From positions 1 to 64,000 of the forward strand of contig NZ_LNDC01000133.1 in assembly GCF_001870905.1 (NCBI RefSeq): a stretch of 64,000 nt of DNA. Direction: 5' to 3'. The position numbers and the translations under genes were made by a program. Positions 7,737 through 61,757 of the stretch are shown piece after piece (positions within the stretch are counted from its first letter, which is position 1; each line of letters opens with the position of its first letter). The notes beneath the pieces were generated by a model, which worked only from the letters and a program-made list of their open reading frames with translations, searched no databases and was not told the DNA's origin. The stretch is from Geitlerinema sp. PCC 9228 (GTDB lineage Bacteria; Cyanobacteriota; Cyanobacteriia; Cyanobacteriales; PCC-9228).

Positions 7737-7746
7737 TAACTTTTTG

Positions 7747-10384: not shown

Positions 10385-10401
10385 AATTTAGAGGACTGTC
10401 T

Positions 10402-11199: not shown

Positions 11200-11223
11200 G
11201 GTGGGCAATGCCCAGCCTACCAT
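11197..11223. repeat. GTAGGGTGGGCAATGCCCAGCCTAC intergenic repeat
   Basis: A GC-rich imperfect inverted repeat occupies the short cobM-cobK spacer, overlapping the cobM stop codon. Its inner arms are TGGGCA/TGCCCA. It may form an RNA hairpin between the two coding regions. Confidence 0.5.
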
Positions 11224-11236
11224 TTAAACAAGAATT

Positions 11237-12001
11237 ATGGCACTATGGCTCATCGGTGGTACAAGTGAAAGTCGAGATGTGGCTGGCGTTTTGAGCGAAC
11301 TTGGTTGTCATTGGGTGGTGACGGTGACGACGCCAAGTGCTGCCAAATTGTATCAAAATCTGACTGGGGAGGTTCGCGTGGGCAAAATGACTCCTGAGAA
11401 AATTTCGCAATTAATCGCCGAATATCCCATTCAAGGGATTGTCGATGCTTCCCACCCCTTTGCCACGGAAATCTCCCAATCCGCCATCGCCACCCAACTG
11501 CCTTATTTACGCTTTGAACGACCGCAAATCCCCATGCGATCGCCACCAACCACAGTTTTTGCTAATGTGGAAGAAATCGTTCAATGGATGGACAAGCGAA
11601 ATTTTCAAAATCGGCGAATCTTGCTAACTTTGGGAGTAAAAGCTTTACCCTATTTTATCCCTTGGCAACCGTACTGTCAAATTTGGGCGCGAATTTTGCC
11701 CAGCGAATCTTCTCGCGAACAAGCGATCGCTGCTGGTTTCCACCCAGAAAAACTCATTCTCCAACGCACCCCAGCCGCCAAAGAACCGGAACGCCAACTT
11801 TGGCAAAAATTAAACATCGATACAGTTATTACCAAAGCCAGCGGTCAAGCGGGTGGTTTTGATGTCAAACAAGCCGTTGCCCTGGAAATGGGCATCGATT
11901 TATGGGCAATTCAAAGACCAAACATCAACTATCCCCAGCAAACATCTAATTTATCGCAACTGCGATCGTTTTGCCAGTCATTTTGTCGTTCAACGGAATA
12001 A
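11237..12001 (+). CDS. cobK: Precorrin-6A reductase (CobK/CbiJ)
   Basis: Reduces (cobalt-)precorrin-6A with NAD(P)H, saturating the macrocycle before CbiET acts. The N-terminal nucleotide-binding loop reads LWLIGGTSESRDVAG, followed by DASHPFATEISQSA, a family hallmark. The C-terminal part has ITKASGQAGGFDVKQAVALEMGI, which matches the family's last conserved block. 254 residues, complete. Start ATG at 11237 follows the intergenic hairpin repeat. It precedes cbiD by 12 bases. Confidence 0.93.
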   Translation: MALWLIGGTSESRDVAGVLSELGCHWVVTVTTPSAAKLYQNLTGEVRVGKMTPEKISQLIAEYPIQGIVDASHPFATEISQSAIATQLPYLRFERPQIPMRSPPTTVFANVEEIVQWMDKRNFQNRRILLTLGVKALPYFIPWQPYCQIWARILPSESSREQAIAAGFHPEKLILQRTPAAKEPERQLWQKLNIDTVITKASGQAGGFDVKQAVALEMGIDLWAIQRPNINYPQQTSNLSQLRSFCQSFCRSTE

Positions 12002-12013
12002 ATTCACATCCCT

Positions 12014-13132
12014 ATGGTTCAAACTGGCTACACCCTTCCCGTTTTTGCCGTTGCTGCCGCCAAAGCAGCCATTCTCTGCTGTCAAAATCCCGCTACGGCA
12101 GAACCTCCCGCATCTGTTTCTACCAACATCCTGCCAGATACCGCCGAAATTCCCATCGAACAGGTAGCCAAACTCGATGCCGACACCGCTTTAGCCATTA
12201 CCCGCAGCGACCCAGGAGATAATTTAGATTTAACGAGAAATACTCCCATTTGGGCTTGGGTACAATTGCAACCTAGAAGCAACAAACCTATGATTTTAGA
12301 AGGTGGGGAAGGGATTGGCAAAACCAGCACTGGCAAAGCCGCTATTTATCGCTACGCCAGGGATATCTTCGATGCCAATATTCTGCCTTTGATTCCCGAC
12401 GACAAAACCGCCGTTATACGAATTATTTTACCGGAAGGACGACAACTGGCAACGCGAACTTCCAACGAGGCGTTTGGTATTTTAGAAGGATTGTCGTTGT
12501 TGGGAACCAGTGGCATTTCCCAACCCCTTTCCGCAGAAGACCGTTTGCAAGATTTTCGCCAGCATTTGCAAGAAACGATTCAAAAGACTCGCCATTTGGC
12601 TTTTTGTATTGGTAGCAATGGTATGCAAGTGAGTGCTAATTTGGGGATTTCCCAGGCAGCGATGGTGCAAACTGGCAACTGGTTGGGTGCTTTGTTGGTG
12701 GAAGCGGGGTTGCGGCAGGCGGAATCTGTGCTGTTAATTGGCTATCACGGAAAGTTAGCCAAACTCGGCGGCGGTATTTTTAATACGTCTAGCCACGTGG
12801 CAGATGGGAAGTTGGAAGTTTTGGCGGCTACGGTGGTGGAAGTAGGTGGCGATTTGGATGCGGTGAAGGCGGTGTTGCAGTCGCAGACGGCAGCGGCAGC
12901 TTACAAGGAACTGGCAAAACGTCATGTAGCCGATGCTGTTATGGCACAGCTGGCGGCAAAAATTACTGCCAAGTCGCTGGCATACGTACAAAAATATGCC
13001 GATACTTCTGTTGAAGTTGGTACGATTTTGTTCGATCGCACGGGGAATATTTTAGCAAAAGATGACAATGCGGAGAAGATTTTACAAAACCACAAAGACA
13101 CAAAGGACACAAAGTCCAATGAGACTAATTAA
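12014..13132 (+). CDS. cbiD: Cobalt-precorrin-5B C1-methyltransferase
   Basis: Methylates C1 of the ring in the cobalt-early route. Diagnostic features are GYTLPVFAVAAAKAAILC at the N-terminus (CbiD usually reads GxTTGxxAAAAAKAA) and EGGEGIGKTSTGKAA in the first domain. Later motifs are a Gly-rich SNGMQVS and LIGYHGKLAKLGGGIFNTSSHVADG. The last dozen residues (NHKDTKDTKSNETN) come from an ACACAAAG-type repeat that has supplied a new C-terminus. The stop overlaps the convergent small membrane protein gene by eight bases. 372 residues. Confidence 0.93.
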   Translation: MVQTGYTLPVFAVAAAKAAILCCQNPATAEPPASVSTNILPDTAEIPIEQVAKLDADTALAITRSDPGDNLDLTRNTPIWAWVQLQPRSNKPMILEGGEGIGKTSTGKAAIYRYARDIFDANILPLIPDDKTAVIRIILPEGRQLATRTSNEAFGILEGLSLLGTSGISQPLSAEDRLQDFRQHLQETIQKTRHLAFCIGSNGMQVSANLGISQAAMVQTGNWLGALLVEAGLRQAESVLLIGYHGKLAKLGGGIFNTSSHVADGKLEVLAATVVEVGGDLDAVKAVLQSQTAAAAYKELAKRHVADAVMAQLAAKITAKSLAYVQKYADTSVEVGTILFDRTGNILAKDDNAEKILQNHKDTKDTKSNETN

Positions 13133-29925: not shown

Positions 29926-30622
29926 GCCTGCTTTCCTTTAAAGCGTCTTTAAAATTGTGCGGCTACCGTTCTTTGGTATGAAACCACAAAATCTACCCCG
30001 GAATCTACCAACCGATGAATTCGTCCTGAAAGCTTGCATGGCAAGCCATCCAGGCAAATACCAGCCCAGCTACCTACATTGGTACGGAGAAAATAACCGC
30101 TGGCAATGGGTACTTACGTCACGCCACGTAGGTATAAATCCATGCTCGTTTTTTTGTTCGTTTTATAAAGATTGTGCAAAGCCATTTTGTGAGCGTTTAC
30201 ACTCCCTGTAATGTCCCGTATAATTATGGTCAGATACAGCAAAAAAACGTACATAACTTCAGTAAATTCACTGAGCAACTGTATCCTATTTGGCAAACCA
30301 CCAACGACATAGGAAGACTTTTTTGTCTGTGTCAGAGGATTGGTAAAGCTGGGGGGAACCCCCCTGCAAAGATAAGGGGCATCTAAAATAAAGGCGTTCG
30401 TAGGGGAAACTGAAATATTTCTTTCTATTGTTGGTTTCCCTGAAAAAGAACACCATGGTTTATTTATCCGAACAAATAGAAAAACTAGGGGAAAACACGT
30501 ACCAACTGAAATAGAGTTGGCGAGCATGGATTTGCAGTAGGGGATCGAAGCAACAAACAAAGGGGTTTACCTATTTGAGATACACCGCACATCACACATC
30601 AACCTTTGAGGAGATCCAGACC
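29926..30622. other. Intergenic region holding the promoter and long leader of the first PEP-CTERM gene
   Basis: About 700 bases. The right 390 bases are the predicted leader of the PEP-CTERM gene. It contains a GGGGGGAACCCCCC hairpin (near 30352-30365) and short segments shared with the leader of the second paralogue: AGAAAAACTAG at 30478-30488 and AGTAGGGGATCGAAG at 30536-30550. No convincing gene is present; a 148-codon minus-strand frame across the leader has no family features. Confidence 0.6.
30164..30226 (+). promoter_or_regulatory. Promoter of the first PEP-CTERM gene, duplicated block
   Basis: TTTACA (30196-30201), 17 bases, then TATAAT (30219-30224) make a near-consensus sigma-70 promoter. 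An upstream TATAAAGATTGTGCAAAGC (30164-30182) is conserved with the second paralogue's promoter at exactly the same distance. Predicted transcription start is about 30231, giving a leader near 390 nt. Confidence 0.75.
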
Positions 30623-31369
30623 ATGAACGCAACCCGCAATTTCTTCAACCCCACGAACAACATGCTTGTAGCGACCGGTATCGCCACCGCTCTAGCTGGC
30701 GGTATGTTGGTTGGCGCACAACCTGCCTCTGCAGCCACAGTGACTTTCGGTGAATCCGCAGATAAGCCCAGCGATGAAAATTCCTTGCAACAACGTCTGG
30801 ACGATTTGACTGTATTCGGTGGTATCGATACCGACAACGATCAAACGGGCATTGAGAAATTCACTAATCCCGACATTGGTGACGACGATAGCGCCCTCCT
30901 CATGCTAGAAGTTGCTGGCTGGGCTGATGGCAATAAATTTGGGATTTACGACGCTAAAGACAAGAACAACCGGCAAGTCATTTTTGAAGGTAACGACCAG
31001 CCAAAAGCCATTGCCTCTGTTGATTACAGTAGTTTCAGCAAGTTCGGTTTCTTCCTTGAATCTAAGAAAGATGGCACCTTCTACACCCAATCCTCCCTCA
31101 ATCCTGATAAATCGCAACAAGCTGTTGTCTATGAAGGGGATGGCGAAACCAAGTTTCAAGATGAATTTGGCGGTATTTTTGAAGAAGATGAATTCATCAT
31201 CGCTTTTGAGGATGTTTTGCGCACAGGCGATCGCCCCTACAACGACAGCGACTTTAACGACATGGTGGTGAAAGTTGGTTCTGTAGCAGCAGTTCCCGAA
31301 CCCTCTGCCGTAGCAGGTTTGGGCGTCGTTGGTGGTCTGATGGCTTTTGCCCGTCGTCGCCGTCAGTAA
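30623..31369 (+). CDS. PEP-CTERM secreted protein, DUF4114-like
   Basis: 248 residues. The signal peptide ends QPASAA (about residue 37). The middle resembles DUF4114: FGFFLESKKDGTFYTQSS, then FIIAFEDVLR and a Ca-binding-like DSDFNDMVVKV. The C-terminus is a PEP-CTERM sorting signal (VPEPSAVAGLGVVGGLMAFA followed by RRRRQ), normally cut by an exosortase, so the product should reach the cell surface or extracellular matrix. GAGGAG nine bases before the ATG at 30623 sets the start. A diverged paralogue lies 1.2 kb downstream. No exosortase is in the window. Confidence 0.9.
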   Translation: MNATRNFFNPTNNMLVATGIATALAGGMLVGAQPASAATVTFGESADKPSDENSLQQRLDDLTVFGGIDTDNDQTGIEKFTNPDIGDDDSALLMLEVAGWADGNKFGIYDAKDKNNRQVIFEGNDQPKAIASVDYSSFSKFGFFLESKKDGTFYTQSSLNPDKSQQAVVYEGDGETKFQDEFGGIFEEDEFIIAFEDVLRTGDRPYNDSDFNDMVVKVGSVAAVPEPSAVAGLGVVGGLMAFARRRRQ

Positions 31370-31850: not shown

Positions 31851-32600
31851 GATCTTTTTACGTGTCGAGAAGATATAGCAGAAAACAGGCAAATCGATCG
31901 AACCAGGGTGGATCTGGAAAGGTTCTTTTTTAAAGCATCTTTAAATTTTACTAGCCGCACTTTATTAGATACGCAATCGAAACACCGATATAGGAGCAAA
32001 CCCCCCTGACAATTGGGCATTTCGGTCTTGAAAAAATTTATTTTTGTATAACAATATATCATTTTACCCTGGTAGCTTTTCAAACTTCAAATTTCCCAAC
32101 AGCTCTGTTTTTAATCATTTTCTATATTTATCTTCGCGAAAATCTTATGCAAGCCTATACAGATCCAGTCAAAGTAGATGCCAACCCATAGGATATAAAG
32201 ATCGTACAAAGCGACCCGCTACGTGTTTACACTCCCTCTAGGTCTCCGTACAATTAACGACTAGATGCACGGAAGAGGTGCATGCTTCCAGGAAAGTTAC
32301 TGAAACATAGATTGGTTGAACTTTCCACAAAGACAGCAACCTTTAAAAGTTTTTTCTGATTTTTGCCTGGCTCTTGCAGGTAAAGAACCGTCAAAGTATG
32401 GTCATATTTCATGAATCTTTTTCCCGCACACACGATCCAGGGCTTCTCTACTTTGTCCAGCCGTATAGGGAACTTAAAGAAGCATGAAACCACAGAAAAA
32501 CTAGCAATTTAAAGTATAAAGTAGGGGCTCAAGGATCGAAAATCAGGAGTTTGCCGGTTGCATGCAAACTTTGAACGAACTTTATTGATTGGTAAAAACT
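31851..32600. other. Non-coding region with the second PEP-CTERM leader
   Basis: About 750 bases without a credible gene. The left part is A+T-rich. The right 340 bases are the predicted leader of the second PEP-CTERM gene and include AGAAAAACTAG (32494-32504) and AGTAGGGG...GGATCGAA (32520-32540), both shared with the first paralogue's leader in the same order. Confidence 0.55.
32194..32256 (+). promoter_or_regulatory. Promoter of the second PEP-CTERM gene, duplicated block
   Basis: TTTACA (32226-32231), 17 bases, then TACAAT (32249-32254). The upstream TATAAAGATCGTACAAAGC and the spacer start CTCCCT match the first promoter, including all spacings. The predicted leader is about 340 nt. Confidence 0.75.
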
Positions 32601-33440
32601 ATGACTACAATGCGCAACTCTTTCAAAATCGCGAATAAAATGCTTCTAACCATGGGGGCTACCGTTATCGCTGGCGGTATGTTGGCTGGAACTCAGCCTG
32701 CTTCTGCAGCTACTATAAAACCTGGACCTCCTGTTTCTGGGAACGAGTCTTTGCAAGAAGAGCTTGACAATTTGGCCGGCGACGGTAACATTGATGCAGT
32801 GGACGACCAAACTGGATATGAGGTATTTACTACGACCTCCACAGGTGCCTCAGCAGTTCTAGCGTTTGAAAATTCGGCTTTGGCCAATGATGAAGAGTTT
32901 GGTATTTACAAACCGGGAAGTACTGACCCAGACGATCGGGTAACCTTGATAGATAACACTTTAGGTCCTACGAGTGATATTGTTCCCGGCGATGGCTTAC
33001 AGGGCTTTCACTTGGCACCTGATGGTAACGGGAATATTGATGTAGTTGATGATGATGGCAATCTGGTCAATGGCGATCCAGATGCTGAGAATTTCAACAG
33101 CACTGACTTTGGTTTCTTCCTTAATCAAACTGGTACTTACTTCGATAATACATTCTATTCAGAAGCTAGCCTCAATCCAGGTGGCAAGCAGCAGTCGCTA
33201 ATCTATCAAGGAAACGAACATGGTAACACCGAGCTCGATGTGCCTGGTTTACTAAACAATAGGACTTTTGAAGATACTGATATGATTGTTTCTTTTGAGG
33301 ATAGTGAATTTATTGACGACAATTTCAACGACATGGGAGTTGTGGTTAGCGACGTGGAACCAGTTCCCGAACCCTCTGCCATGGCAGCTTTAGGCTTAGT
33401 TGGTAGTGTCATAGCATTGGCTCGTCGCCGCCGTCAATAA
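32601..33440 (+). CDS. PEP-CTERM secreted protein, paralogue of the 30.6-kb gene
   Basis: 279 residues from the ATG at 32601 (TTG at 32589 and ATG at 32610 are alternatives). Signal peptide with AGTQPASAA, then a domain aligning with the first paralogue: SLQEELDNLAGDGNIDAVDD against SLQQRLDDLTVFGGIDTDND, and FNSTDFGFFLNQTGTY. It ends with FEDSEFIDDNFNDMGVVV and the PEP-CTERM tail VPEPSAMAALGLVGSVIALA plus RRRRQ. It is Asp/Asn-rich and acidic. It carries an extra segment of about 30 residues (GDGLQGFHLAPDGNGNIDVV) absent from the first copy. Confidence 0.88.
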   Translation: MTTMRNSFKIANKMLLTMGATVIAGGMLAGTQPASAATIKPGPPVSGNESLQEELDNLAGDGNIDAVDDQTGYEVFTTTSTGASAVLAFENSALANDEEFGIYKPGSTDPDDRVTLIDNTLGPTSDIVPGDGLQGFHLAPDGNGNIDVVDDDGNLVNGDPDAENFNSTDFGFFLNQTGTYFDNTFYSEASLNPGGKQQSLIYQGNEHGNTELDVPGLLNNRTFEDTDMIVSFEDSEFIDDNFNDMGVVVSDVEPVPEPSAMAALGLVGSVIALARRRRQ

Positions 33441-49370: not shown

Positions 49371-52300
49371 TTAACCATCCATACCCAGCAATTTACGCTT
49401 GGCTGCCTGGAATTCTTCTTCGCTAAGCAACCCCTCCTTCTTCATTTCTGCTAGTTTTTGTAATTCTTCCATATTGCCCTTGCTACTCCCTTGGGCATTG
49501 CTATCGGCTGGTGGGGGCGCTGGGGTGGCTGACCCGTTGCTGGTGGAAACCATTTCTAAATCGGGTTCCGGCACTGGCGTGGCTGCAGTTGGGCTTGGCT
49601 GACTGGAAGCTGGTTCTGCTGCTGGCGTAGATGCTTCGGGAGATTGGGTAGGTAACTTCCAATCTTGGATGGTTGTACGGATAATATCGCGTTCGCGTTT
49701 GTATTCTTTGCTGTCTTCCCCTCCCTGTTTGTCTAGTTCGCCAGCAAGTTGTTTTAAGTAGTCCATAAACTGTTGGTACAAAGCATGTTTCTGGGCTGGC
49801 GTTTCGGCTGCCTCCCGTTTTGCTTGGACTTGACTGTCAATTTCCTCGCGGTCGGGACGGCAAGCTGGTACCTCCAAAACTTGAATCGCTTCTTCCCAAC
49901 TGGAAGCCAGGTCAACATTTTCCGTTCCCACTTCTGTTTGGCGCGTATAGCGAATATTGCGCTCTTGAGTGGCACGATTTTCTTCTTCTCGCAAGACACC
50001 AAGCGCCCGGGCAAGGACAATCAGTTTAAAGATATTGGGGTCTTCGGGGAAAATATCCCAAAAGGGTGCCTCTTTTTGCATGTGAACGGGAATGGGCAAA
50101 TCTTTGCTTTCTCCCCGCAACTGGGCGCGTTTGGCGATGATGGTTTCCCCTTTCCAGTCTTGATAGGAACGGCGCAGTTCTTTCATGCCGTCGATACAAC
50201 GTAGGGAAAACCCCCCCATTTCTTGGACAAAAACCAGGCGGTGGCGTTCGTTGTCTCCCAAGGGTTTGATGTCGTCTTCTTTGATGCCTTCCAGTTCTCC
50301 CAGCAGGGGCAGTACTTTTTGGGCGGCAGGATCGCCGGTATTGCGACCTCCCCGCAGGGCAACGTTGGTGTTGTAAGATGGGTTGAAGTTGGCGTCTTTT
50401 CCTTTGAGGACGGATTCGGAAAGGACAATCAGGGGTTTGGATTTGTTGTAAGCCACCCGCAGTTGGTTCACAACTTCTTCTTCGTCGTTGTAAGCTTTGA
50501 ACAAGCGATCGCAAGCGGCTAGTTCGGTTTTCAGCTTGCTGCTTTCGGGACTGTTTTGAATCACTTTATAGGTTCGTTCGGAAACAATTTCCCGCCAGTC
50601 GCTTTCTTTGACCTCGGGAATGGAAATAATATCGAACAGGCGCATGACTTCGTCGGCGGCGCGGTTGTCTTTCCACAGGGGACTGGCTTGTTGGAGAATT
50701 TCTTCGGACATGGTGGTACAAATTTTGTCCATGCCGATTTCAAAGGTGGTTTTGCTGCCTTGGGTTTCCCCGGCTAGCTGTTCGATGACATTTTGGTACA
50801 GATCGTTGAGTTCTTGGCGATCGTACAGTTTTAAACCGTTAATGAGCAAGGCATCGGCGCTTTCGGCTTCTTTCCTAGATTGGTCGTTAAAATGGTCCCT
50901 TGCCTGAATCAGCCTTTGCTGGTATTGATTGAGTTGGCGTTCCAAGACTGTCAAGTGTTCCTGCAGGCGGTCGATAACTTCTACGCCTAATGCCCTGGCT
51001 TTGCGCTGTATAATGGCAATTAAGGTTCCTTCTAAATTTCCTAAAGCTGACTCGCAATATTCTTCCATTTTGGCTTGTTTGGAAATGCCAAATTTATCCC
51101 GAAACTCAACAATATCTTGGATACTTTGTTCGTATTGCTTTTGACAGGCTGATTCGTTGGGTTCCCAAATTTTTTCCTGTTCGCGGCGGAATTTTTCGCT
51201 GGTATCGTCAAAGATTTGCCGGGCGGTGGTAATAAATTCGGCAGCAAATTTTGGTCCTCGCTGGCGGTCTTCGATGATGCTGTATAGTTCTTCTTCTAGG
51301 GCTTGGCGACCGCGTTGGATAATTTCGTTGCGGTTGCTGTACATGCGCTTGAGGTAATCCCCATGCTGCCGTTCGTCGGTACTCAGTTCGCGAAAGTGTT
51401 CCCGGCGATATTCTTCCACTTTGGGGTTGAGATATTCATCTAGAAACCGCATGATGTTGCCGGTTTCCGACCCCATGACTTTGACGCCTTGTTGCTTGCA
51501 CTCCAGCCAATTGTCGTTGGCGATTTCGTTGCGCAAGCTGTTCACCCATTCGGAAATGATGGCAATATAAGAGCGATCGCCGCCAGCGGATAAATCAGCT
51601 AGCAGTTCTGCCTGGGTGAGGCGTTTGGGTTTGAGAATGTCCCCGCGAACGACTTCTAGCATTTGCGGCGGTAAAATGGCGGATTCGTTCAGCCACCAAG
51701 CTGCTAGGTCTTTGGCTAAACGATTTGAGAGGGAAGCCCGAATTTGCGCCACGGGAATTTCAATGGTAGACAGCCCAAAACTCATAAAGTTTTTGGGATA
51801 TCCCCTACCACCGGGGTCGGCTTGCGCAAAGGCCCCTTTAATGTTATCGCGAATGGAGCGTTTGTGAGGGGCAAATTCAGAAGTCAGGTCGAGAAAGATG
51901 TTTTGAGCCATCATTTCTCGGATTTGTTCCAAACTAAAATCGCTTTCCCCGTTTTTGGTTCCTACCAAATAGGTAAAGTCGAAGGGTGGTTTTTGACTGC
52001 GTACTTCGTTGCTTTGACCTTCGCTAAATTGAAATGCATATTCGGTACGATGGTCGCAAAAGTAACTTAATTCCATTAAAGCAGCGTAACCGTTGGCCAA
52101 AACGCGATCGCCAGCACTAATTCCCGAAAAAGCCGTTGGCATGGGCATAATTCCCGTCACCAGAGGCGATCCTTCTCCTTGTATCCAATGGCGGATACAG
52201 TAAGCCATATCGATTAACATGCCGCTGCCAGTACCGCCAGAAAGGGAACCCGTCACAAAAATATTAATTTGATTGGTTTTTACCTTGACGCCGTACCGAT

Positions 52301-52760
52301 CCAGCATGGAGTTTTCTTTCCCTTTCACTCGCTTGACGGCATCCAGAAATTTTTTCCGAATGGCATCGTAGTTACAGAAAAAAGCAAACCGCCCGCAAGC
52401 GCGAATTTGACCGGCACCAGCTTCCAAACCGCCGATATTGCGTTCTAGTTCTTTGGGAAACCAGCTTTCAATCCATGGATAGTTTCCCATATTGCACACC
52501 ATATCCTCGACTTGGCGGCCGCTGACTGTGGCAAAATGTTTCTCCGTATCTTTAAAAGGACTGCCACCGGCTTCGGGATTGCTAATTTTATAATCTTTAT
52601 CTGTATCTACGACCAAAAAGCTTAAAACGGGGAAATTTCTCAAACTGCCGTAACTTTCTTCGGCGAGACGACGCACCCGCGAGAGGACTTCCGCACCGGT
52701 TCCGCCAATACCTACTAATATGGTAGGAACCATTGTTTTTGCTTCTACTTCCGCAGCCAT
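49371..52760 (-). CDS. Large tubulin/FtsZ-like GTPase with C-terminal SHOCT domain
   Basis: 1129 residues. The tubulin-like N-terminal domain has a phosphate loop GIGGTGAEVLSR (17-28), GAGQIRACGRFA (115-126) and the tubulin signature GSLSGGTGSG (171-180). A long helical, coiled-coil-prone middle spans about 430-650, and a further mixed region runs to about 1020. A Pro/Ala/Ser-rich linker and a SHOCT-like helix pair follow (LAEMKKEGLLSEEEFQAAKR). The ATG at 52760 follows AAGGAG. It is 60 bases behind the VWA gene. Relatives with VWA partners are proposed to remodel membranes; polymerisation is expected but unproven. Confidence 0.85.
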   Translation of the reverse strand: MAAEVEAKTMVPTILVGIGGTGAEVLSRVRRLAEESYGSLRNFPVLSFLVVDTDKDYKISNPEAGGSPFKDTEKHFATVSGRQVEDMVCNMGNYPWIESWFPKELERNIGGLEAGAGQIRACGRFAFFCNYDAIRKKFLDAVKRVKGKENSMLDRYGVKVKTNQINIFVTGSLSGGTGSGMLIDMAYCIRHWIQGEGSPLVTGIMPMPTAFSGISAGDRVLANGYAALMELSYFCDHRTEYAFQFSEGQSNEVRSQKPPFDFTYLVGTKNGESDFSLEQIREMMAQNIFLDLTSEFAPHKRSIRDNIKGAFAQADPGGRGYPKNFMSFGLSTIEIPVAQIRASLSNRLAKDLAAWWLNESAILPPQMLEVVRGDILKPKRLTQAELLADLSAGGDRSYIAIISEWVNSLRNEIANDNWLECKQQGVKVMGSETGNIMRFLDEYLNPKVEEYRREHFRELSTDERQHGDYLKRMYSNRNEIIQRGRQALEEELYSIIEDRQRGPKFAAEFITTARQIFDDTSEKFRREQEKIWEPNESACQKQYEQSIQDIVEFRDKFGISKQAKMEEYCESALGNLEGTLIAIIQRKARALGVEVIDRLQEHLTVLERQLNQYQQRLIQARDHFNDQSRKEAESADALLINGLKLYDRQELNDLYQNVIEQLAGETQGSKTTFEIGMDKICTTMSEEILQQASPLWKDNRAADEVMRLFDIISIPEVKESDWREIVSERTYKVIQNSPESSKLKTELAACDRLFKAYNDEEEVVNQLRVAYNKSKPLIVLSESVLKGKDANFNPSYNTNVALRGGRNTGDPAAQKVLPLLGELEGIKEDDIKPLGDNERHRLVFVQEMGGFSLRCIDGMKELRRSYQDWKGETIIAKRAQLRGESKDLPIPVHMQKEAPFWDIFPEDPNIFKLIVLARALGVLREEENRATQERNIRYTRQTEVGTENVDLASSWEEAIQVLEVPACRPDREEIDSQVQAKREAAETPAQKHALYQQFMDYLKQLAGELDKQGGEDSKEYKRERDIIRTTIQDWKLPTQSPEASTPAAEPASSQPSPTAATPVPEPDLEMVSTSNGSATPAPPPADSNAQGSSKGNMEELQKLAEMKKEGLLSEEEFQAAKRKLLGMDG

Positions 52761-52820
52761 GGCAAATCTCCTTTTGTTTTTTGTAACGACATGCTCAATC
52801 CCTAAAAGAGGACGTACAAT

Positions 52821-53726
52821 CTAACATCGCGAAAGCCAAGGAATTCCTCCAGCCAAACGCCAAACAATACCCGGTGTGGCGGCACTCCAGAAAAAAGCAT
52901 TTCCCAAAGCAATTTTTCCAGCTACTGGCATAGGTAGCTTCATCATCCCTTGTAAAACCCAGCGGTCTAAGGGCAAAACCAACAGCCACATCAAGGCAAT
53001 CCAGATCGATCCTATCCAAAAAATAATCCAAGGTAAGTTACTGTTGAACTGACTGAATAAGTCTTCGGCGAAGAGAACATCTAAATTGTTAATTTGCCCT
53101 GATAAATAAATTCCCTGGGTGGCTAAGGCAGCTTTTCGCAATTCGGGGGCTTGCTGGCCGATAATAATGGAATGAAGCCTCACTTTTTTTAGGGCGGCTT
53201 GGGTAATGGTGGCTGGCGCTACTTCAGCTTTCCCATCGGTGACCAGCAGTAATTCCCGACAGGTGTTTTCCAAGCTTTCCAAAGAAGAAATGCCTTTTTG
53301 GATAACTTGGTCGATATCGGTTTGGTCGGGTTCGACTTTTTCGGGAAGCTGCGGGTCTTGCAGGACTTGCGTTAACTGCCGCTTTACTTTCTGACTGTTA
53401 TCGCTAAAGCTTTTCGTCAAAGGAACCACTTCCCCACCAAACCCCAGAATTTGTACTTGGTTGGGTTGGCGTAGATTCTGGGGGGAATTTTCGTCGAGAT
53501 AAGCCCGTACGGCATCAATTTCTTGGGACATGGTGGAACCAGGGGCGTTAAAGTCCCCGGATTCGTATGTGCTATTGCTCAAATCCAGGGCAATAGCCAC
53601 GCCGACGGCTGGTCTTCCCAGTCCTAGGAAAGCAAACAGTAGCAAACCCAGACAGGCAAGTCCCAAAAAAATCAGGGGAATCTGAAATAATGGGTAACGC
53701 CAAAGGGCACGACGGGAGGATCTCAC
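52821..53726 (-). CDS. Membrane-anchored VWA-domain protein, partner of the tubulin-like GTPase
   Basis: 301 residues. One N-terminal membrane helix (PLFQIPLIFLGLACLGLLLF), then an extracytoplasmic or cytoplasmic von Willebrand A domain. Its MIDAS motif is DLSNST (about residue 48), the MIDAS Thr lies in the middle region, and the Asp is in LLLVTDGKAE. A second hydrophobic span (WIIFWIGSIWIALMWLLVLP) lies near residue 240. The start is GTG at 53726 with AAGGAAG upstream. VWA proteins bind metal-dependently to partner proteins; operon context points to the tubulin-like GTPase. Confidence 0.82.
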   Translation of the reverse strand: MRSSRRALWRYPLFQIPLIFLGLACLGLLLFAFLGLGRPAVGVAIALDLSNSTYESGDFNAPGSTMSQEIDAVRAYLDENSPQNLRQPNQVQILGFGGEVVPLTKSFSDNSQKVKRQLTQVLQDPQLPEKVEPDQTDIDQVIQKGISSLESLENTCRELLLVTDGKAEVAPATITQAALKKVRLHSIIIGQQAPELRKAALATQGIYLSGQINNLDVLFAEDLFSQFNSNLPWIIFWIGSIWIALMWLLVLPLDRWVLQGMMKLPMPVAGKIALGNAFFWSAATPGIVWRLAGGIPWLSRC

Positions 53727-54397
53727 GGTTTTTTTCTTCCTTGTTGTTTTTCTACCTGAGAGACACTGCGATCGCTAGGTCTGACTAAGTCCATATGAAA
53801 AATGATTTAGGGACAGCGATCGCGACAGCCACGCTTGAAATTGACAAGATAGCGCTGGCTGCGTGAGATGGAACGGGTCGCTCCCAAAGAGCTTTCCATC
53901 CATTTGATTTGGTTTTCCCATCCCTAGCCAAGATATAACAGAGAAGGTTTCCTTAGCATTGTGCCCCAAACATAGAACCCTATCTATCCTTCCTATGCTT
54001 TGGTGTGCCAATTTCATTAACAAAGTGTATAGCAACCTTGCCAATCATTTTATGTCATTATGTTAAGTCGGCAATGGGAGACCGATTGGTGGTTCTTCCC
54101 GAAAACGCTATAACAACCAGGACATCTGAATTAGCCGATTTTCCGTTTTGGGAGCATTTGATGGCGGAATGGCCATAAAGAAACCTGAGATTGTACTGTG
54201 GGACTCATTGGATTTCATAGAAATAAATATATCTTATGGTTTTATTTTTTGCCACTGGTGGGCATACTGCTTTTAAAGAATAAGCTATTTAGTAGAAATT
54301 TGACAATGTTTAGGATTTTTAAAAGAAAAACTCTAAGTTTGCAATTACAATATTAGGAAATCCAGCCCGATTTGTCGTATGTTTTAGGAAGCAGCTA
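53727..54397. other. Divergent intergenic region between the VWA/tubulin operon and the protease operon
   Basis: About 670 bases, A+T-rich toward the right. TTGACA at 54300-54305 is the best -35 candidate for the rightward genes; I see no equally good -10 at 17 bases. A 90-codon minus-strand frame has no family character. Shared regulation of the two divergent operons is possible. Confidence 0.45.
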
Positions 54398-55393
54398 ATG
54401 AGTCCTTGGACTTGTACGGGACCGCCAGGTGAAGAGCACGAACCGGTCAATAATTCGACCCCGGTGTGTACGGTGTGCGGTCGTCCTCGCGAGGAAAGTG
54501 AAAAAAACCCACCGCCTAATGGAACGTCTAAAGGTCCGAAACCACCGAAATCTACTTTGATTGCCGCCTCCACAGCTGCTTTGGTTGTTGTTGGTGGCGT
54601 ATTTATTTGGCAGTTGCCCAACATCCCAGTTCTCTGCGATACCGTAGGCAACTGCGCTGTAGATAAAGAAAATCAAAAACTGTACGAAACCGCCGTTTCC
54701 GAAGCAGACAGTGCCGTCAACGCTGCCAACCAAGCCACACAAGTATCTGAGTTACAACAAGCCCGCGATCGCTTGCAAGGCGCGATCGAGCAATTGCGAT
54801 CGGTATCTCCCGAATCCAAACAAGTGTATCTGCAAGCCCAAGACGCCCTTACTGACTACGAAGGGCAGCTAACGAGTATGGACGAACGGCTGCAAAAAGA
54901 GCAAGTTGCCCAGCAAAAGCTCAACCAAGCCACCAACCAAGCCAACTCTGCCCAACAGCAGAGCAGCCAAGCTAGTACGCTAGAAGAATTTGAAGCAGCT
55001 CAAGCCAAGTGGCAAGAAGCAACAAAAGCTTTAAAGGAGATTCCGGACAATACATTTGTCACGGCACAAAAAGAGCAAAAATTACCCCAATACCAGAAAA
55101 AAGTAACAGAACTTGAAGACAAAATCGAACAAAAGGTTGCTGCCCAACGCCAACGTAGAAATTCCTCTCAAAACTACCACAGAGGCGATATCGAACAAAA
55201 GGTTGATAATGCCCAACGCCAACGTAGAAATTCCTCTCGCCACTACCACAGAGGCGATCGCACGGGATCTAGAGGCACTCCACCACCACCAGATCCCAAA
55301 TCGCCTGCCGATCCTTGCAATCCGGTTTGGGGAGACCCTGCGCCTGGATGTTCTAGTTCTCAGTCAGGTTCTTCCTCAGAACCAGTTTGGTAA
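54398..55393 (+). CDS. Cys-cluster / TM / coiled-coil protein with repeat tail
   Basis: 331 residues. The N-terminus carries W4-x-C6, H14 and C24-x-x-C27, which could form a zinc ribbon. A membrane helix follows (STLIAASTAALVVVGGVFIW, about 51-70), then two nearby Cys (LCDTVGNC). A long Gln/Ala-rich coiled-coil runs to about residue 240, then two tandem 22-23-residue repeats. The tail is Pro/Ser-rich and ends SSSEPVW. Likely an envelope scaffold with a cytosolic metal-binding head. Two short Cys-containing segments near the C-terminus could form a disulphide. No known family; it starts an apparent operon with two proteases. Confidence 0.72.
   Translation: MSPWTCTGPPGEEHEPVNNSTPVCTVCGRPREESEKNPPPNGTSKGPKPPKSTLIAASTAALVVVGGVFIWQLPNIPVLCDTVGNCAVDKENQKLYETAVSEADSAVNAANQATQVSELQQARDRLQGAIEQLRSVSPESKQVYLQAQDALTDYEGQLTSMDERLQKEQVAQQKLNQATNQANSAQQQSSQASTLEEFEAAQAKWQEATKALKEIPDNTFVTAQKEQKLPQYQKKVTELEDKIEQKVAAQRQRRNSSQNYHRGDIEQKVDNAQRQRRNSSRHYHRGDRTGSRGTPPPPDPKSPADPCNPVWGDPAPGCSSSQSGSSSEPVW
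55124..55258. repeat. Tandem repeat encoding IEQKV...RRNSS...YHRGD units
   Basis: Unit 1 (55124-55189, 66 bases) and unit 2 (55190-55258, 69 bases) are nearly identical. They encode IEQKVAAQRQRRNSSQNY then HRGD, and IEQKVDNAQRQRRNSSRHY then HRGD. The high identity suggests a recent in-frame duplication. Confidence 0.85.
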
Positions 55394-55437
55394 GGAATTG
55401 TTGGGCAGTTATAAGATTTCCCATGGAGGCTATACTC

Positions 55438-57756
55438 ATGCGAAGATTCAAACTCATTGCAGCTTTTTTGATGGGGTTGGCTTTGGTTTTAGCTACCAAT
55501 CTCCCCGTTGCTAGTATTTCCAGTTCTTCTGTTGTTCGCGAATCCCCGCCCGATTCCGCGCAAGTTCCTCAAAGCGATCGCAGCTATCCCGTCGCCTTAA
55601 ATATAGGGAAACTCTTTACCTTTTATCAAGGATTGCAAGAGTCGGACTCGCTGATTCAACAGGGGAATATCCAACAGGCAGCGCGGATTCAAAAACAACT
55701 CAAAGAGGATTTTCCGCGACCGGATGCGGTTCTCGCTCCTATTACCGATGTAGAAAACCTTTCTAATGAGGGCAAAAAATATTACGAGTTAGCCGAAGCT
55801 GGAATTGACAGCGGATTAAAGGATAAAGCTTTGCAACCTTTGAAATTGCTCACCAGCAATTATCCAGACTTCCTTCCCGGTCACCTCATGCTCGCTAAAA
55901 CCTATGAAAAATACGAACAACCAGACAAAGCCTTAGAAACATTAGAGAGAGCTACAGATTTTTATCCCCAAAGCACAGAAATTCTGGATGCCAAAATCAA
56001 ACTCCTCAAAGAAGATCATAAATACTTACAAGCATCCATTGCCGCCCGCAAATTGACAATTACCTTTCCCAACCATCCCCAAGTTGATAAATATAAAAAA
56101 GTAGCCAAGGACAACTTTTTGGCTTGGAAACAGGATATAGAAGGTTTTGTCACAGGGGCTCGTCTCGTTTCTGCCATGACAGGGGATCTTTCTTCTGCCA
56201 GAGAGCTAGCTGCGATTATTGCGCTGGGAGAAGTGAAGTATGGAGAATATCTAGCCGAACAATACAAACAAGAACTGCCTTTGGTGGAAGACGAAGAGGT
56301 AGTGAATTATGTTGATTCGATAGGTCAAAAAGTAGCCAAAAAGCTAGGTCGCCAACAAGACAGCGTTGGCAATCCGATTAAATATGAATTTTATGTCATT
56401 GATGCTCCCAATACCAATGCTTTTGCTTTGGCAGGTGGGAAAATTTTTCTCTATTCGGGATTGCTAGAAATTCTGAATTCAGAAGCAGAGCTGGCAGGGA
56501 TTTTAGCCCACGAAGCTGCTCATGCTGCTTTATCTCATAGTATTGAGGAAAAAATTGAGTTTACTACAGCACAAAATATTTCTAAGCTAATTCCTTTTGG
56601 GTCATTTCTGACTGACTTACAACAAGCAAAATATAACCGTCACCAGGAACGAGATGCGGATATTTTGGGTACGCGAGCTTTAACGGAAGCCGGTTATGCA
56701 GCTGATGGTTTGCACCGGGTAATGAAAACTTTTAATAAATTGGGATCGTCAGGTCCTACTTGGTCGGCCAGTCATCCGCCTACCGACAAACGAATTAAAT
56801 ACTTGCAAGATTTGATTCAGCGTCGCAATTACAATCGTTACCAGTATGAAGGTGTCCAACCTTACTGGCAAGAGAAAAATATCCTGCGGGAAAATCTCAG
56901 GTTTTCTTTAGCTAGTCTCGATCCGGAAGATGTGGAAGAAGATTCCGGTGGCGGTGGACTTTTGGGTAAAATTGGCGATGCTATCAGCGATGCCGTTTCC
57001 TTTGGCGGTGACGATGACCTAGAAATTCCGACTCCTTCGGATGGTCTCATCCAGCTAGCCAACTTACAGCAAGCTGCCACCTTAACCCAACAAGAAGCGG
57101 ATGCCAGCGAAGAAAGCGAAGCGCAAGCCGACAGTCAAACGGAGGATACCGAATCCCAGCAGGCTACTGCGGATAGTAGCAATACCAGTTCCGAGTCGGA
57201 AACTGCCGATGCTACAGCAGGAACAAATTCTACTGTAGAAGGCGATGCATTGGTTTCCGAGTCGCAAGAAGGCAATGCCACAAACGAAAGCAGCGATGGT
57301 GCAGAAGAAGCGCCAACACCACAAGAAAACACCGCCGACAATGACCAGCAAACTGCCCAAGGAACTTCCCAAGGAACCCAAAAAATTCCTTTTGAGAATT
57401 TTTGGCAGGAAAAACAGGGTGTGGTTTTGCAACTGTTGCATGCCAATGTAAAGCCCTGGGGTCGCTATACCTTAGATATTAAGGTGGAAAATCATAGCGA
57501 AGAAAAATTTGGCATTGGTCCTTTTGCAGTTGATATTTTGACCTACGAACGGGAAGAAATTCCTTCTGATTTTAAAGTGAAAGAAGGAAATGCTATCGTC
57601 GAACCAGGGGATACTCTAATTGCAACGGTGAAAGTAATTGGCCAGAAATGGCAAACCAATGAAGGAAAACAAGAAGAAACTGAGAACCAGCAAGGATTGG
57701 TACTAAGCATTCGGGAGTCCACGCCAGCTGGTCGTGTTTTCCGTATAGGTTTCTAA
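55438..57756 (+). CDS. Secreted M48 metalloprotease with TPR region
   Basis: 772 residues from the ATG at 55438, with GGAGG eight bases upstream. A signal peptide (FKLIAAFLMGLALVLATNLP) precedes an N-terminal TPR region (YYELAEAGIDSGLKDKALQP, LAKTYEKYEQPDKALETLER). The M48 domain has the zinc motif H358-E-A-A-H362 and the third ligand in ERDADILGTRAL. A Glu/Ser/Thr-rich linker of about 120 residues and a beta-rich, Ig-like C-terminal domain follow. The arrangement recalls BepA-type envelope quality-control proteases, with TPRs here in front. It is 44 bases behind the coiled-coil gene. Confidence 0.88.
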   Translation: MRRFKLIAAFLMGLALVLATNLPVASISSSSVVRESPPDSAQVPQSDRSYPVALNIGKLFTFYQGLQESDSLIQQGNIQQAARIQKQLKEDFPRPDAVLAPITDVENLSNEGKKYYELAEAGIDSGLKDKALQPLKLLTSNYPDFLPGHLMLAKTYEKYEQPDKALETLERATDFYPQSTEILDAKIKLLKEDHKYLQASIAARKLTITFPNHPQVDKYKKVAKDNFLAWKQDIEGFVTGARLVSAMTGDLSSARELAAIIALGEVKYGEYLAEQYKQELPLVEDEEVVNYVDSIGQKVAKKLGRQQDSVGNPIKYEFYVIDAPNTNAFALAGGKIFLYSGLLEILNSEAELAGILAHEAAHAALSHSIEEKIEFTTAQNISKLIPFGSFLTDLQQAKYNRHQERDADILGTRALTEAGYAADGLHRVMKTFNKLGSSGPTWSASHPPTDKRIKYLQDLIQRRNYNRYQYEGVQPYWQEKNILRENLRFSLASLDPEDVEEDSGGGGLLGKIGDAISDAVSFGGDDDLEIPTPSDGLIQLANLQQAATLTQQEADASEESEAQADSQTEDTESQQATADSSNTSSESETADATAGTNSTVEGDALVSESQEGNATNESSDGAEEAPTPQENTADNDQQTAQGTSQGTQKIPFENFWQEKQGVVLQLLHANVKPWGRYTLDIKVENHSEEKFGIGPFAVDILTYEREEIPSDFKVKEGNAIVEPGDTLIATVKVIGQKWQTNEGKQEETENQQGLVLSIRESTPAGRVFRIGF

Positions 57757-57852
57757 CTGTATGTAGTGAAAAGTTGGCTTGGGGGAAATCAAAATTTTTC
57801 TGCTCTTTCCCCCTAAACATTTTTGATTTCGAGGAAAGAGTTCTAGGTACCG

Positions 57853-59664
57853 ATGATGTGGCGTCGATTTTTTTACCGATTGGGAACCACCGCGATCGCT
57901 ACCATCGCGATCGCTGGTTCTGTGTTACCAGCATCTGCCAAACCTTGGCAGGAAATTCAGGAAATGGCACGAAAATTTACCGTGCAAATTCGCCCGTCGG
58001 GCGATTATGGTTCTGGTGTTCTTATTGGGCGCGAAGGAAATACTTACTACGCCCTTACTGCCTGGCACGTGGTCAGTTCTATTAACCCCGATGAAAGCGG
58101 TAGAATTGTTCCTTACGACCAAATCACCCAAACAGGCATTCAATTTCACTGCCGGGATATCGTGGTCAAACCCGTGGCAGAATGTGGTTCCAATGAAGAA
58201 GCTGCCATCGACTTGGCTGTGGTTAAATTTACCAGCGACAAAGATTATCCCGTAGCCACCCTTTCCCAATACCAATACAACATGTATCGAAATGTTACCT
58301 ATTCAGAAAACGGTTCCATGCAAACAGACCGCAGCAATGGGGAACTGCCTTCTGTTTACATTGGTGGTTATCCGCTAGAAGGCGGGATGCCAGAATTTCG
58401 GTTCAATCCCGGGCGATTGTTTGACAATACAGGAACGGCGCTTTCCCATCCCCGGGTAGGAATCCAAGGATATCGACTGGTTTATACCAACTTATCCCAT
58501 AGGGGAATTAGTGGCGGTCCAGTTTTGGATGCAGAAGGTCGCTTAATCGGAATTCACGGTAGGGGAGACGGGAAAGAAATTCGCAGAGAAACCGATGACG
58601 AAGGCAATATAGTTCATAAAACTGTAGAAGACTTCATTGAAGAAGTTAGCAATAAATTTCCGGTCAAATTAGGTCTGAGCGCTGGCATTCCTATGCCTAC
58701 TGTTCTCCAGTGGATACAACAGCATTCGTCGGACCAATCCCTTCTTTCTCTGCTTGACATTGAAAATTCTGCCCCCTCCGAGGCCACGTCAAATGCTTCT
58801 TTAAGAAATAGTTGGCAGCCGCCACAAATTACTCAGAATCCAGGAAATCCTTTTCGATTTATTGCTTTAGGTAATAACAAGTGGCGGTTAAATAATATCG
58901 AAGAAGCATTATCTGATTTTGAAAAAGCGATCGCTCTACAACCAGAATATTTCTTGGGATATTTGGCAAAAGGAATTGCTCTCAGTTACGCCCAACGCCA
59001 CGAAGAATCTTTGCAAGCTTGTGCCACAGCCAGACGGAAAATTGAGGCTACTTTAGGCGAACGACGAGAAAACAGCCGATATCGCTACGATCCTTTACGA
59101 TGCGAGGCGGAAGCCTATGCCAAATTAGGAAAAACAGCAACAGCCTTGGAAAGGTTAAATGAAGCCATCAATTTGGATTTTGAAGAGGGGAGAAACCCTT
59201 CAGATTTGGCTTTAAAAGCTGAGTGGCTATACGCCCAGCAACAATATCGCGGTTCCGAACAAGCATTTACAGAAGCTATTGAATTGCGCGAGGAAAGTGA
59301 ATTGCCGCGATCGCCTTTGCTGTTCAACAATCGAGCCACGGTCAGGATGCAACTATCCAAAAAACAAGCAGCGTTCCAAGATATTGAAACGGCTTTGGAT
59401 ATCAATCCCAATTTTGCACCAGCTTGGAGCAATAAAGGATGGTGGCTGCGCTTGCAAGGTCAATTAGCAAAATCTTTAGAAGCTTACAATCGTGCGGTCA
59501 AACTTGCCCCCAACGATGCCAATGCCTGGAACAATCGCGGTATGACTCTCTATCAGATGGGGCGAGAAAGCGAGGCTTTAGAATCTTTTGAAGAAGCCTT
59601 AGAAATCGACCCCAATTATACCCCAGCTCAGGAAAATCGCGATGCGCTGGTATCGCAACAGTGA
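57853..59664 (+). CDS. Secreted trypsin-like serine protease with C-terminal TPRs
   Basis: 603 residues. A signal peptide ends SVLPASA (about residue 29). The S1-type protease domain has H72 (TAWHVV), D120 (AAIDLAVVKF) and S220 (HRGISGGPVL), a complete triad. After a Ser/Pro-rich linker come at least five TPR units from about residue 340 (NIEEALSDFEKAIALQPEYF, NPNFAPAWSNKGWWLRLQGQ, DANAWNNRGMTLYQMGRESE). TPRs probably select or hold substrates. The gene lies 96 bases behind the M48 gene on the same strand. Confidence 0.9.
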   Translation: MMWRRFFYRLGTTAIATIAIAGSVLPASAKPWQEIQEMARKFTVQIRPSGDYGSGVLIGREGNTYYALTAWHVVSSINPDESGRIVPYDQITQTGIQFHCRDIVVKPVAECGSNEEAAIDLAVVKFTSDKDYPVATLSQYQYNMYRNVTYSENGSMQTDRSNGELPSVYIGGYPLEGGMPEFRFNPGRLFDNTGTALSHPRVGIQGYRLVYTNLSHRGISGGPVLDAEGRLIGIHGRGDGKEIRRETDDEGNIVHKTVEDFIEEVSNKFPVKLGLSAGIPMPTVLQWIQQHSSDQSLLSLLDIENSAPSEATSNASLRNSWQPPQITQNPGNPFRFIALGNNKWRLNNIEEALSDFEKAIALQPEYFLGYLAKGIALSYAQRHEESLQACATARRKIEATLGERRENSRYRYDPLRCEAEAYAKLGKTATALERLNEAINLDFEEGRNPSDLALKAEWLYAQQQYRGSEQAFTEAIELREESELPRSPLLFNNRATVRMQLSKKQAAFQDIETALDINPNFAPAWSNKGWWLRLQGQLAKSLEAYNRAVKLAPNDANAWNNRGMTLYQMGRESEALESFEEALEIDPNYTPAQENRDALVSQQ

Positions 59665-59700
59665 TGCATTCCCGCTATCTTTTAGGGAGAATCGCAAATC

Positions 59701-59819
59701 ATACCAAATCCGATATACATAAACCCACAAAAATTTTGTAGGGCCGATTCGCGAATCGACCCTACACCAGGAAATTTCCATGGATAAAATAGCGAGTCTG
59801 TTTGAGGTGGATTTGGTAT
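59701..59819. mobile_element. MITE-like element with 11-bp perfect terminal inverted repeats
   Basis: ATACCAAATCC (59701-59711) is mirrored by GGATTTGGTAT (59809-59819). The centre contains GTAGGGCCGATTCGCGAATC then GACCCTAC (59739-59766), a 28-base near-perfect palindrome whose core is the same as the repeats in cbiET and cbiG-cobJ. No coding capacity; it lies between the protease gene and the COP23 gene, which converge. Confidence 0.6.
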
Positions 59820-59946
59820 CAAACCTACAGGGAATTTCAATTTTTACGTTTCGTTTGAAATTGCTATATTAGGAAAAGCTTCCCTCCCGAAAAATGGAGA
59901 GAAGCCTGGTGAATTGCTCTGACTCATGGCAGAAATCTTGGTTTCT

Positions 59947-60549
59947 TTACCAAACTGAGCCACTGCTACTGTTGTTGCTGGTTTCTTCGGTGTTTTCCGC
60001 TTCCGGTTCGCTGGTAGGGGTGGGTTCCGTTCCAGCTTCCACAGGGGCATTTTGCAAATAGTCTTCCATATCGAGGTAAATGCGATCGCCGGTTTCGTTA
60101 AGCGTTCCTGCTTGACCGCTACGGAAAGCCAACAAAGCTTGCAACCTGGAACTTGGACTTTGCCAAGGTTTGAGCGTGTACAAGACATACTCGGAAGTAC
60201 AACTAGCGCCCTCACTGGGAACAGCACAGATGACCGGCAAACCGTTGACACGCCCGGTGGTCAAGTACTTCAAGTTGCCGTTGTTGTAAAATTTGTCAAA
60301 ACGTGCAGACACTTGTTGGCAGCGTTCCTGGGGAGTATAGCCAGAGGAATCAAAATGGTCGGAAACCCAGCGAATGACTGGCAAATCCCCCCTAGAGGTT
60401 TCCGCCATGGTCGCTGGGGCACCTTTGCTCTCGCCACAGAAGAAAGAGCTAGCCATGCCCGCACGTACGTTGCTTTGATTGCTAACCACACCAGCAGCTA
60501 CAGCCAAGGCTGAGGCTACTAGGGCGGATGTGATGTATTTTCCTCGCAT
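59947..60549 (-). CDS. COP23-domain secreted protein
   Basis: 200 residues from the ATG at 60549, which has AGGAG seven bases upstream. A signal peptide (LVASALAVAAGVV) is followed by a COP23 domain: FFCGESKGAPATMAETSRGD, PVIRWVSDHFDSSGYTPQER, and LKYLTTGRVNGLPVICAV with paired Cys. The domain is named for a circadian-oscillating membrane protein of cyanobacteria; its function is unknown. The tail is Glu/Thr/Ser-rich and ends SSSGSVW, echoing the end of the 54.4-kb coiled-coil protein. Confidence 0.88.
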   Translation of the reverse strand: MRGKYITSALVASALAVAAGVVSNQSNVRAGMASSFFCGESKGAPATMAETSRGDLPVIRWVSDHFDSSGYTPQERCQQVSARFDKFYNNGNLKYLTTGRVNGLPVICAVPSEGASCTSEYVLYTLKPWQSPSSRLQALLAFRSGQAGTLNETGDRIYLDMEDYLQNAPVEAGTEPTPTSEPEAENTEETSNNSSSGSVW

Positions 60550-60812
60550 AAGCAACTCCTATGAGCGAGTCGTCGCTTTTGATTTCGAGTTGTTCGTTTC
60601 CTATTGTAGCTCGTAATTAGAAAATGACGACCGAGAGATTGCGGAGATGATATCTTTCTTGACAATTTTCCAAACGTTTTTGCCTATAAGGGGCTTATAA
60701 TGCTTACATGTCGGGGAAAGATGTTCGTTTAACTTCCTGTAAAGAAGGAAAAGGGGTTGGCATTTTTTGACACGGAAAGACCCGTACCTAACAACCGAGT
60801 ATTTTCTGGTAG

Positions 60813-61757
60813 CTATTCAGGAAAAAAGTGAGGAAAACGCGCCGTTACTTGCTTTTGGGAAGTCTGAGAGGTAAATTGAGGAGCTCGCTGGCGAAAGGTT
60901 TGTACGGGAATTCCCCAATTAGAACGGACCATTATTTCTTTTAGTTTGGGTCTGGGACGAGTGCCGTCTTGGTATACATAAGGATCGCCCCATACGGGAT
61001 GAGCGCCTTTGCCGTGAATGGCAACCACTTCACCGGCTAAGTTCAGCACTGGACCCCCACTCATTCCTTTGGCTAGGGAATTGGTATACCCAATTTTATA
61101 TCCTTGTTGCAAAACTTTTTCTAAAATTCCTGAAACTTGACCAATTGTAAAAAGAAAACCGTTGGCGGTGGGGGGTGGTTCGTGGAAAGGAAAACCAGCA
61201 ACGGCAACTAAATCTCCTTTGTTCAAGGAATGGGAATTTCCCAATTTAGCAACTTGATAGGAAGCGTTGGGGCTGCGAAACTGGACTAAGGCGAGGTCTT
61301 GGTTGGGAAATAAGGTTTTGCCTACCTGGGAGGCTTGATACGTTTGACCGTCTGGGGTTTGTACGTGATAGATATCGCCGAATGAAAGCACATGATGGTT
61401 GGTGACCACCGTATAAGTATCTTGGGAACGATGGACCATAATGCCCGAACCCCAATTTTGGCTATCTGGCAACCGACTTTCGGTGACCAATAATTTAACT
61501 GTAATTGCACGAGCGCGATCGCGCAATTTTGCTTCCCTTTTAGGGGGAAGAACAGCTACAATAGGTTCCTGCAAGGAGATATTGGGTTTCAGGTGTTCGG
61601 AACTGGGAAAATAAGGTTGGGGCGATGGTAATGGAGGAATAGATGGAGACTGGGAACTTCCGGAGAATACCGAGTTTTGGTTAAAAGTCAGAGGCACCGC
61701 AAAACCAAAACCGATGCCTGCTACAATTGTGAGAAATGCTAGCGATCGCCCCTTCAT
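60813..61757 (-). CDS. Secreted trypsin-like serine protease
   Basis: 314 residues. An N-terminal signal or anchor (LAFLTIVAGIGFGFAVPL) and a Pro/Ser-rich stretch precede the S1-type domain with H122 (VVTNHHVL), D154 (NQDLALVQF) and S233 (KGMSGGPVL). After the Ser the sequence runs VVAIHGKGAHPVWGDPYVY, containing PVWGDP, also present in the tail of the 54.4-kb protein. No TPR or PDZ domain. It is oriented with the COP23 gene (263 bases apart) and opposed to the other protease operon. Confidence 0.88.
   Translation of the reverse strand: MKGRSLAFLTIVAGIGFGFAVPLTFNQNSVFSGSSQSPSIPPLPSPQPYFPSSEHLKPNISLQEPIVAVLPPKREAKLRDRARAITVKLLVTESRLPDSQNWGSGIMVHRSQDTYTVVTNHHVLSFGDIYHVQTPDGQTYQASQVGKTLFPNQDLALVQFRSPNASYQVAKLGNSHSLNKGDLVAVAGFPFHEPPPTANGFLFTIGQVSGILEKVLQQGYKIGYTNSLAKGMSGGPVLNLAGEVVAIHGKGAHPVWGDPYVYQDGTRPRPKLKEIMVRSNWGIPVQTFRQRAPQFTSQTSQKQVTARFPHFFPE

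Follow-up and report, generated by a model that had tools for sequence, protein, structure and literature searches.

A tubulin-like GTPase cassette adjoining a COP23-protease module in Geitlerinema sp. PCC 9228 suggests an unrecognised envelope signalling system

In the 64,000-nucleotide stretch of contig NZ_LNDC01000133.1 analysed here (the window), a giant tubulin-like GTPase and its membrane partners lie beside a cluster of exported proteases and COP23, and unrelated exported proteins share a C-terminal tail, suggesting an envelope signalling system that has not been recognised before. We interpret the neighbourhood as two joined cyanobacterial modules, in which a state of the envelope would be sensed by the exported module and passed via the membrane proteins ZnCC and VWA to the GTPase (TUB), a reading whose chances we judge to be about even. 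Seven adjacent genes with these domains had been proposed in the initial annotation, and all seven ORFs were recovered at their positions with matching Pfam domains where Pfam had any, with no other clear gene in between:

49371..52760, minus strand: TUB, giant tubulin/FtsZ-like GTPase of the Tubulin_2/FtsZl1 family, 1129 aa, no transmembrane segment (TM) (Tubulin_2, E 1.6e-107)
51705-52721, minus strand: GTPase domain of TUB, T4 loop SGGTGSG intact
49386..49469, minus strand: SHOCT tail of TUB, residues 1098-1125 (Pfam E 1.3e-6)
52821..53726, minus strand: VWA protein, with N-terminal TM, VWA domain with MIDAS, second TM and C-terminal Cys (VWA_3, E 1.6e-6), 60 bp upstream of TUB
54398..55393, plus strand: ZnCC, with zinc finger, TM, coiled-coil ectodomain, Pro/Ser-rich linker and tail SEPVW
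54407..54481, plus strand: CHCC zinc finger of ZnCC (W-x-C...H...N...C-x2-C-G), the same as in the ZnR-TM-PBP receptors of TUB cassettes
54608..55132, plus strand: coiled-coil ectodomain of ZnCC, homologous to the ectodomains of TM Ser/Thr kinases at loci L120-L127
55379..55390, plus strand: C-terminal tail EPVW of ZnCC, predicted extracytoplasmic
55438..57756, plus strand: exported TPR-M48 metalloprotease, HEAAH motif, Peptidase_M48 (E 2e-27) after the TPR
57853..59664, plus strand: exported S1-TPR protease, Trypsin_2 (E 2.9e-14) plus TPR array, His/Asp/Ser motifs present
59947..60555, minus strand: COP23, exported (N-terminal hydrophobic segment), ending SGSVW, one of three COP23 loci in the genome (PF14218, E 7.5e-40, 136 bits against a gathering score of 27)
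59950..59961, minus strand: C-terminal tail GSVW of COP23
60813..61757, minus strand: S1b, exported HtrA/Deg-like serine protease domain without PDZ, the second Trypsin_2 (E 4.4e-23)

The orientations define three transcription units, namely VWA-TUB (minus), ZnCC-M48-S1-TPR (plus) and S1b-COP23 (minus), on which ground a single operon of seven genes was rejected. Adjacency alone therefore shows little, and what was found is a neighbourhood rather than an operon; the separate units also count against coupling of the two modules. In the predicted topology TUB is without a TM, the VWA domain and the ZnCC ectodomain are outside, and the proteases and COP23 have signal-like N-termini. ZnCC had zero Pfam matches and has one TM, at 52-70, behind the conserved N-terminal zinc finger. 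The AlphaFold model of the TUB region beyond the GTPase domain was mostly helical at very low confidence (pLDDT 38), and like the COP23 prediction (pLDDT 54) it was built from two or three input sequences and was too poor for a fold search. Sequence searches for relatives of solved structure returned none for either protein, nor were viral relatives of COP23 found. Elsewhere in the window, an apparent cobalamin-biosynthesis gene cluster was noted from the ORFs at 3645-13132.

For comparison, about 90 loci carrying a tubulin homologue were assembled, along with about 30 independent COP23 loci. TUB homologues at an E value of 1e-100 or less were present in 83 of the 391 genomes of the order, and the surrounding sequence, up to 20 kb per locus, was taken; further sets comprised the COP23 loci and TUB loci from outside the order. 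ORFs were called mechanically, with approximate gene starts, and their proteins were clustered. A scan of genome contigs gave two loci only.

Module 1 is a receptor/switch cassette composed of a zinc-finger membrane receptor, VWA and the Tubulin_2 GTPase, and is partly known as the FtsZl1-VWA pair reported in 2010. The order receptor, VWA, TUB was co-oriented in most loci; among 86 loci the VWA cluster occurred in 56 and the receptor cluster in 48. Receptors consist of a strongly conserved W-x-C...H...N...C-x2-C-G finger, a TM and a variable ectodomain of Peripla_BP_6, PBP_like_2, Phosphonate-bd or PsbP_2 type, while the VWA proteins conserve the DxSxS MIDAS (D48, S50, S52, T104 and D164). The C-terminal Cys of VWA (window 52821-52826), predicted to be on the cytosolic side, was kept in at least 95% of 51 homologues.

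The cassette is variable. TUB stands alone in two clades; the orphan-TUB genomes G112 and G078 carry a receptor-VWA pair elsewhere, and in G094 and G263 a receptor was present and the genome search found no VWA match. TUB homologues outside the order are without the cassette. Two of these (L221 and L222, another order, 2.5-Mb genomes) have a TUB 61% identical, with no VWA or receptor alongside, that adjoins a pilin-like gene and genes resembling chemotaxis/response-regulator genes. In one clade (L086, L089, L091, L093, L105 and L115) the SHOCT end of TUB is swapped for a short domain that looks GYF-like, with a WCAGMEGW-type motif and the ending LF. At six protease-free loci (L038, L083, L097, L116, L203 and L204) the region upstream of the receptor-VWA cassette repeatedly carries a Ser/Thr kinase and an FHA-ABC transporter, accompanied in some by a small conserved protein, c20; this set possibly represents alternative partners of the cassette.

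The window shares the Tubulin_2/FtsZl1 GTPase and its VWA partner with the FtsZl1-vWA systems of Makarova and Koonin (2010; PMC2875224), of which cyanobacterial members were known. A reviewer of that paper pointed out that in Arthrospira FtsZl1 is adjoined by a periplasmic binding protein of branched-chain type, which is probably the receptor of module 1. The words protease, peptidase and zinc are absent from the main text of PMC2875224, which also contains no description of the zinc-finger receptor family, COP23 or the C-terminal tail. Makarova and Koonin proposed a membrane-remodelling machine; applied to the window, TUB polymers would shape the membrane while the proteases clear or process envelope proteins. 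The FtsZl1-VWA operons and the published proposal speak for this, as do the nearest models of M48 (BepA) and S1b (DegP), both below cut-offs. However, solute-binding and other exchangeable receptor ectodomains fit sensing better, and the same reviewer argued for transport or signalling; we regard remodelling as very improbable.

Module 2 is made up of exported COP23, the PDZ-less HtrA-like S1b, S1-TPR, M48-TPR and a coiled-coil membrane sensor, and occurs with or without the tubulin. Each of the 52 TUB genomes tested carried COP23, at 1-15 copies per genome and 304 in total, and an S1-type motif lay within 5 kb of COP23 in 34 of 48 COP23 loci. Away from TUB, we observed COP23, S1b, M48 and S1a in that order (L183), M48, S1a and COP23 together (L182), and COP23, S1b and S1a in order (L184 and L187). 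Since the protease/COP23 set recurs away from TUB, the proteases of the window belong to a separate module. S1b matches HtrA/Deg over the protease domain only. The set shares exported M48 plus TPR and HtrA-like proteases with BepA/DegP periplasmic quality control; unlike there, the TPR precedes M48 in the window protein, and the scores fall far short of the BepA and DegP cut-offs (nearest named models BepA and LoiP for M48-TPR).

COP23 and S1 are missing from the surroundings of most TUB loci, and the majority of COP23/S1 sets are away from TUB. The linkage of the two modules is thus facultative, and a reading of the seven genes as a single obligate system is not supported: most TUB-VWA loci lack the proteases, and the COP23-protease module is usually without TUB. 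The initial annotation had also reasoned that accidental adjacency would leave GTPase and VWA together but never with proteases or COP23; instead, the protease/COP23 side was found to adjoin TUB-VWA in several lineages. COP23 was near TUB in at least 6 of 34 genera (g1, g2, g9, g55, g75 and g91) against 1.02 expected (P = 4.4e-4), and in at least 5 of 15 families (P = 1.5e-3), under a null of uniform placement of COP23 copies that genome islands or hotspots would weaken. Nostoc (L052) provided an additional case. On a FastTree phylogeny of TUB this state was scattered, with at least eight changes, and was common on the clade's deep branches; because of long branches it is unsure where the window sequence belongs. 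The whole window set was found again in G116 (L131/L190), a genome of another family with TUB about 54% identical, as VWA followed by two tandem TUB genes and then S1b, S1a, M48, two ZnCC and COP23.

These patterns bear on the possibility that the modules are independent and are neighbours because they are mobile or abundant, with no functional link. The 1-15 copies of COP23 per genome, the mostly separate occurrence of COP23/S1 sets and TUB cassettes, and the separate transcription units in the window are all in keeping with it. The excess of COP23 near TUB after correction by genus and family argues against it, together with the full gene set in G116, the chimeric ZnCC and the proximity of its ectodomain type to COP23 (below), and we consider independence rather unlikely.

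The initial annotation had described ZnCC as a Cys-cluster/TM/coiled-coil protein. The TM and coiled coil stood, and the Cys cluster proved to be a zinc finger of receptor origin, which had been missed. The ectodomain matched those of the TM kinases in L120-L127, which sit between TUB and COP23/S1, at 31-35% identity (E 3e-28 to 6e-22), a homology in coiled coil, where chance similarity comes easier. With a profile of the ectodomain, 17 of 22 strong matches were within 6 kb of COP23, including in genomes with TUB elsewhere; matches below about 90 bits are coiled-coil noise and were ignored. When the window genome and G116 were searched with the finger, only ZnCC-type fingers and no ZnR-PBP receptor were found. 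Judged by these homologies, ZnCC is a chimera that carries the zinc finger of a module 1 receptor on the ectodomain of a protease-module kinase. Since that ectodomain is the coiled coil of module 2, ZnCC joins parts of both modules, and this union within a single protein is the strongest individual argument that the two are functionally linked.

A second feature, not noticed in the initial annotation, is a C-terminal tail common to exported, mutually unrelated proteins of module 2 and consisting of a linker and [LVIA][W/F]-COOH, as in the SEPVW of ZnCC and the SGSVW of COP23 in the window. The complete ORFs of 100 aa or more in TUB loci numbered 970; 31 of them had the ending [LV][WF], and 24 of these 31 were COP23, kinase/ZnCC or a small exported module protein, c56. 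The tail, after a Pro/Ser/Gly/Asn-rich linker, also occurs on S1b, S1-TPR, CAP and DUF4344 proteins of COP23 loci, and is missing from 32 of 57 COP23 proteins. With COP23 left out, the strict tail was present in 22/256 ORFs within 5 kb of COP23 versus 13/1333 farther off, and after clustering in 8/165 versus 4/742 (odds ratio 9.4, P = 2.6e-4), the background being the distant ORFs of the loci taken; five control endings showed no significant enrichment near COP23. Tailed COP23 proteins went with tailed neighbours (11/20 versus 4/28, P = 0.004), in counts that ignore relatedness. Several of the COP23 loci behind these tail comparisons were chosen after tails had been noticed in COP23.

Judging from signal peptides and TMs, the module proteins are predicted to have their tails on the outer side. 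A role as an outer-membrane beta-barrel signal is unlikely, given the position behind a Pro/Ser/Gly-rich linker. Two related PEP-CTERM proteins in the window (30575-31369 and 32589-33440, ending VPEPSAVAGLGVVGGLMAFARRRRQ and similar) carry the known exosortase sorting signal, which is unrelated to the module 2 tail. The tail resembles the C-terminal signals by which HtrA proteases are switched on: aromatic C-termini of exported proteins (OMP YxF, MucE WVF) activate DegS and AlgW (PMC8545111), and both situations combine an HtrA-type protease with exported proteins that have an aromatic C-terminal tail. Unlike in DegS/AlgW, S1b is without a PDZ, no RseA/MucA-type anti-sigma was identified, and tails also occur on sensors and on the proteases themselves. 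Since S1b lacks a PDZ, the tail would have to be read by a different HtrA or at a non-PDZ site; this lack and the many COP23 proteins with no tail speak against the coupled reading.

A further alternative is a role in conflict or defence, as in the GTPase-centric systems with tubulin and vWA described by Kaur et al. (2020; PMC7159879). Those GAP1-N2 systems pair tubulin domains having a coiled-coil/helical part with membrane proteins, place vWA outside, and employ zinc ribbons and in some cases trypsin; tubulin, vWA, membrane association and zinc ribbons are shared with the window. They require GAP1 and a P-loop GTPase, however, neither of which was detected by Pfam in any of the seven window proteins, and according to that paper their tubulin theme is found only in firmicutes and actinobacteria. 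PADLOC matches were weak (20-53 bits) and confined to protease-domain or coiled-coil stretches, and no named effector domain was found, which makes a defence role improbable.

Returning to the two modules and their proposed coupling, we infer a role for the exported module in sensing or carrying out proteolysis in the envelope, with ZnCC and VWA as its putative link to the GTPase. The module 1 receptor would be a single-pass protein with a cytosolic CHCC zinc finger, a TM and an exchangeable ectodomain; the VWA partner would have two TMs with its VWA domain outside, and TUB would be the giant cytosolic GTPase. Module 2 would sense an envelope change, and a common partner, in the simplest case an HtrA-type protease, would read the [LVIA][W/F]-COOH tail on its unrelated proteins. 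This state would then be relayed by ZnCC and VWA to TUB, whose assembly or nucleotide cycle may set the response. The suggestion of the initial annotation that VWA and coiled-coil membrane proteins may couple a cytosolic switch to proteolysis outside the cytoplasm agrees with the predicted topology, the recurrence and the ZnCC chimera. A broader possibility, which we put forward tentatively, is that [LVIA][W/F]-COOH with its disordered linker could be an undescribed recognition tag on unrelated exported proteins (COP23, HtrA-like and TPR proteases, CAP, the DUF4344 metallopeptidase, and kinase and zinc-finger-receptor ectodomains). The tag would mark out a network of envelope proteolysis from which, in some lineages, a zinc-finger/VWA membrane complex would carry signals to a tubulin-like GTPase.

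The FtsZl1-VWA pair was known; for the COP23-protease module, the zinc-finger receptor family and the shared tail, no description was found in the open-access literature searched. To our knowledge, no function has been established for COP23, by name a clock-controlled cyanobacterial protein, or for the FtsZl1 tubulins since their description in 2010. COP23 is now placed in a protease module with a testable tail motif, and the tubulin-VWA pair gains sensory receptors whose ectodomains can be recognised. Coupling of the modules, if real, would give a member of the tubulin family a part in transmembrane signalling tied to extracellular proteolysis.
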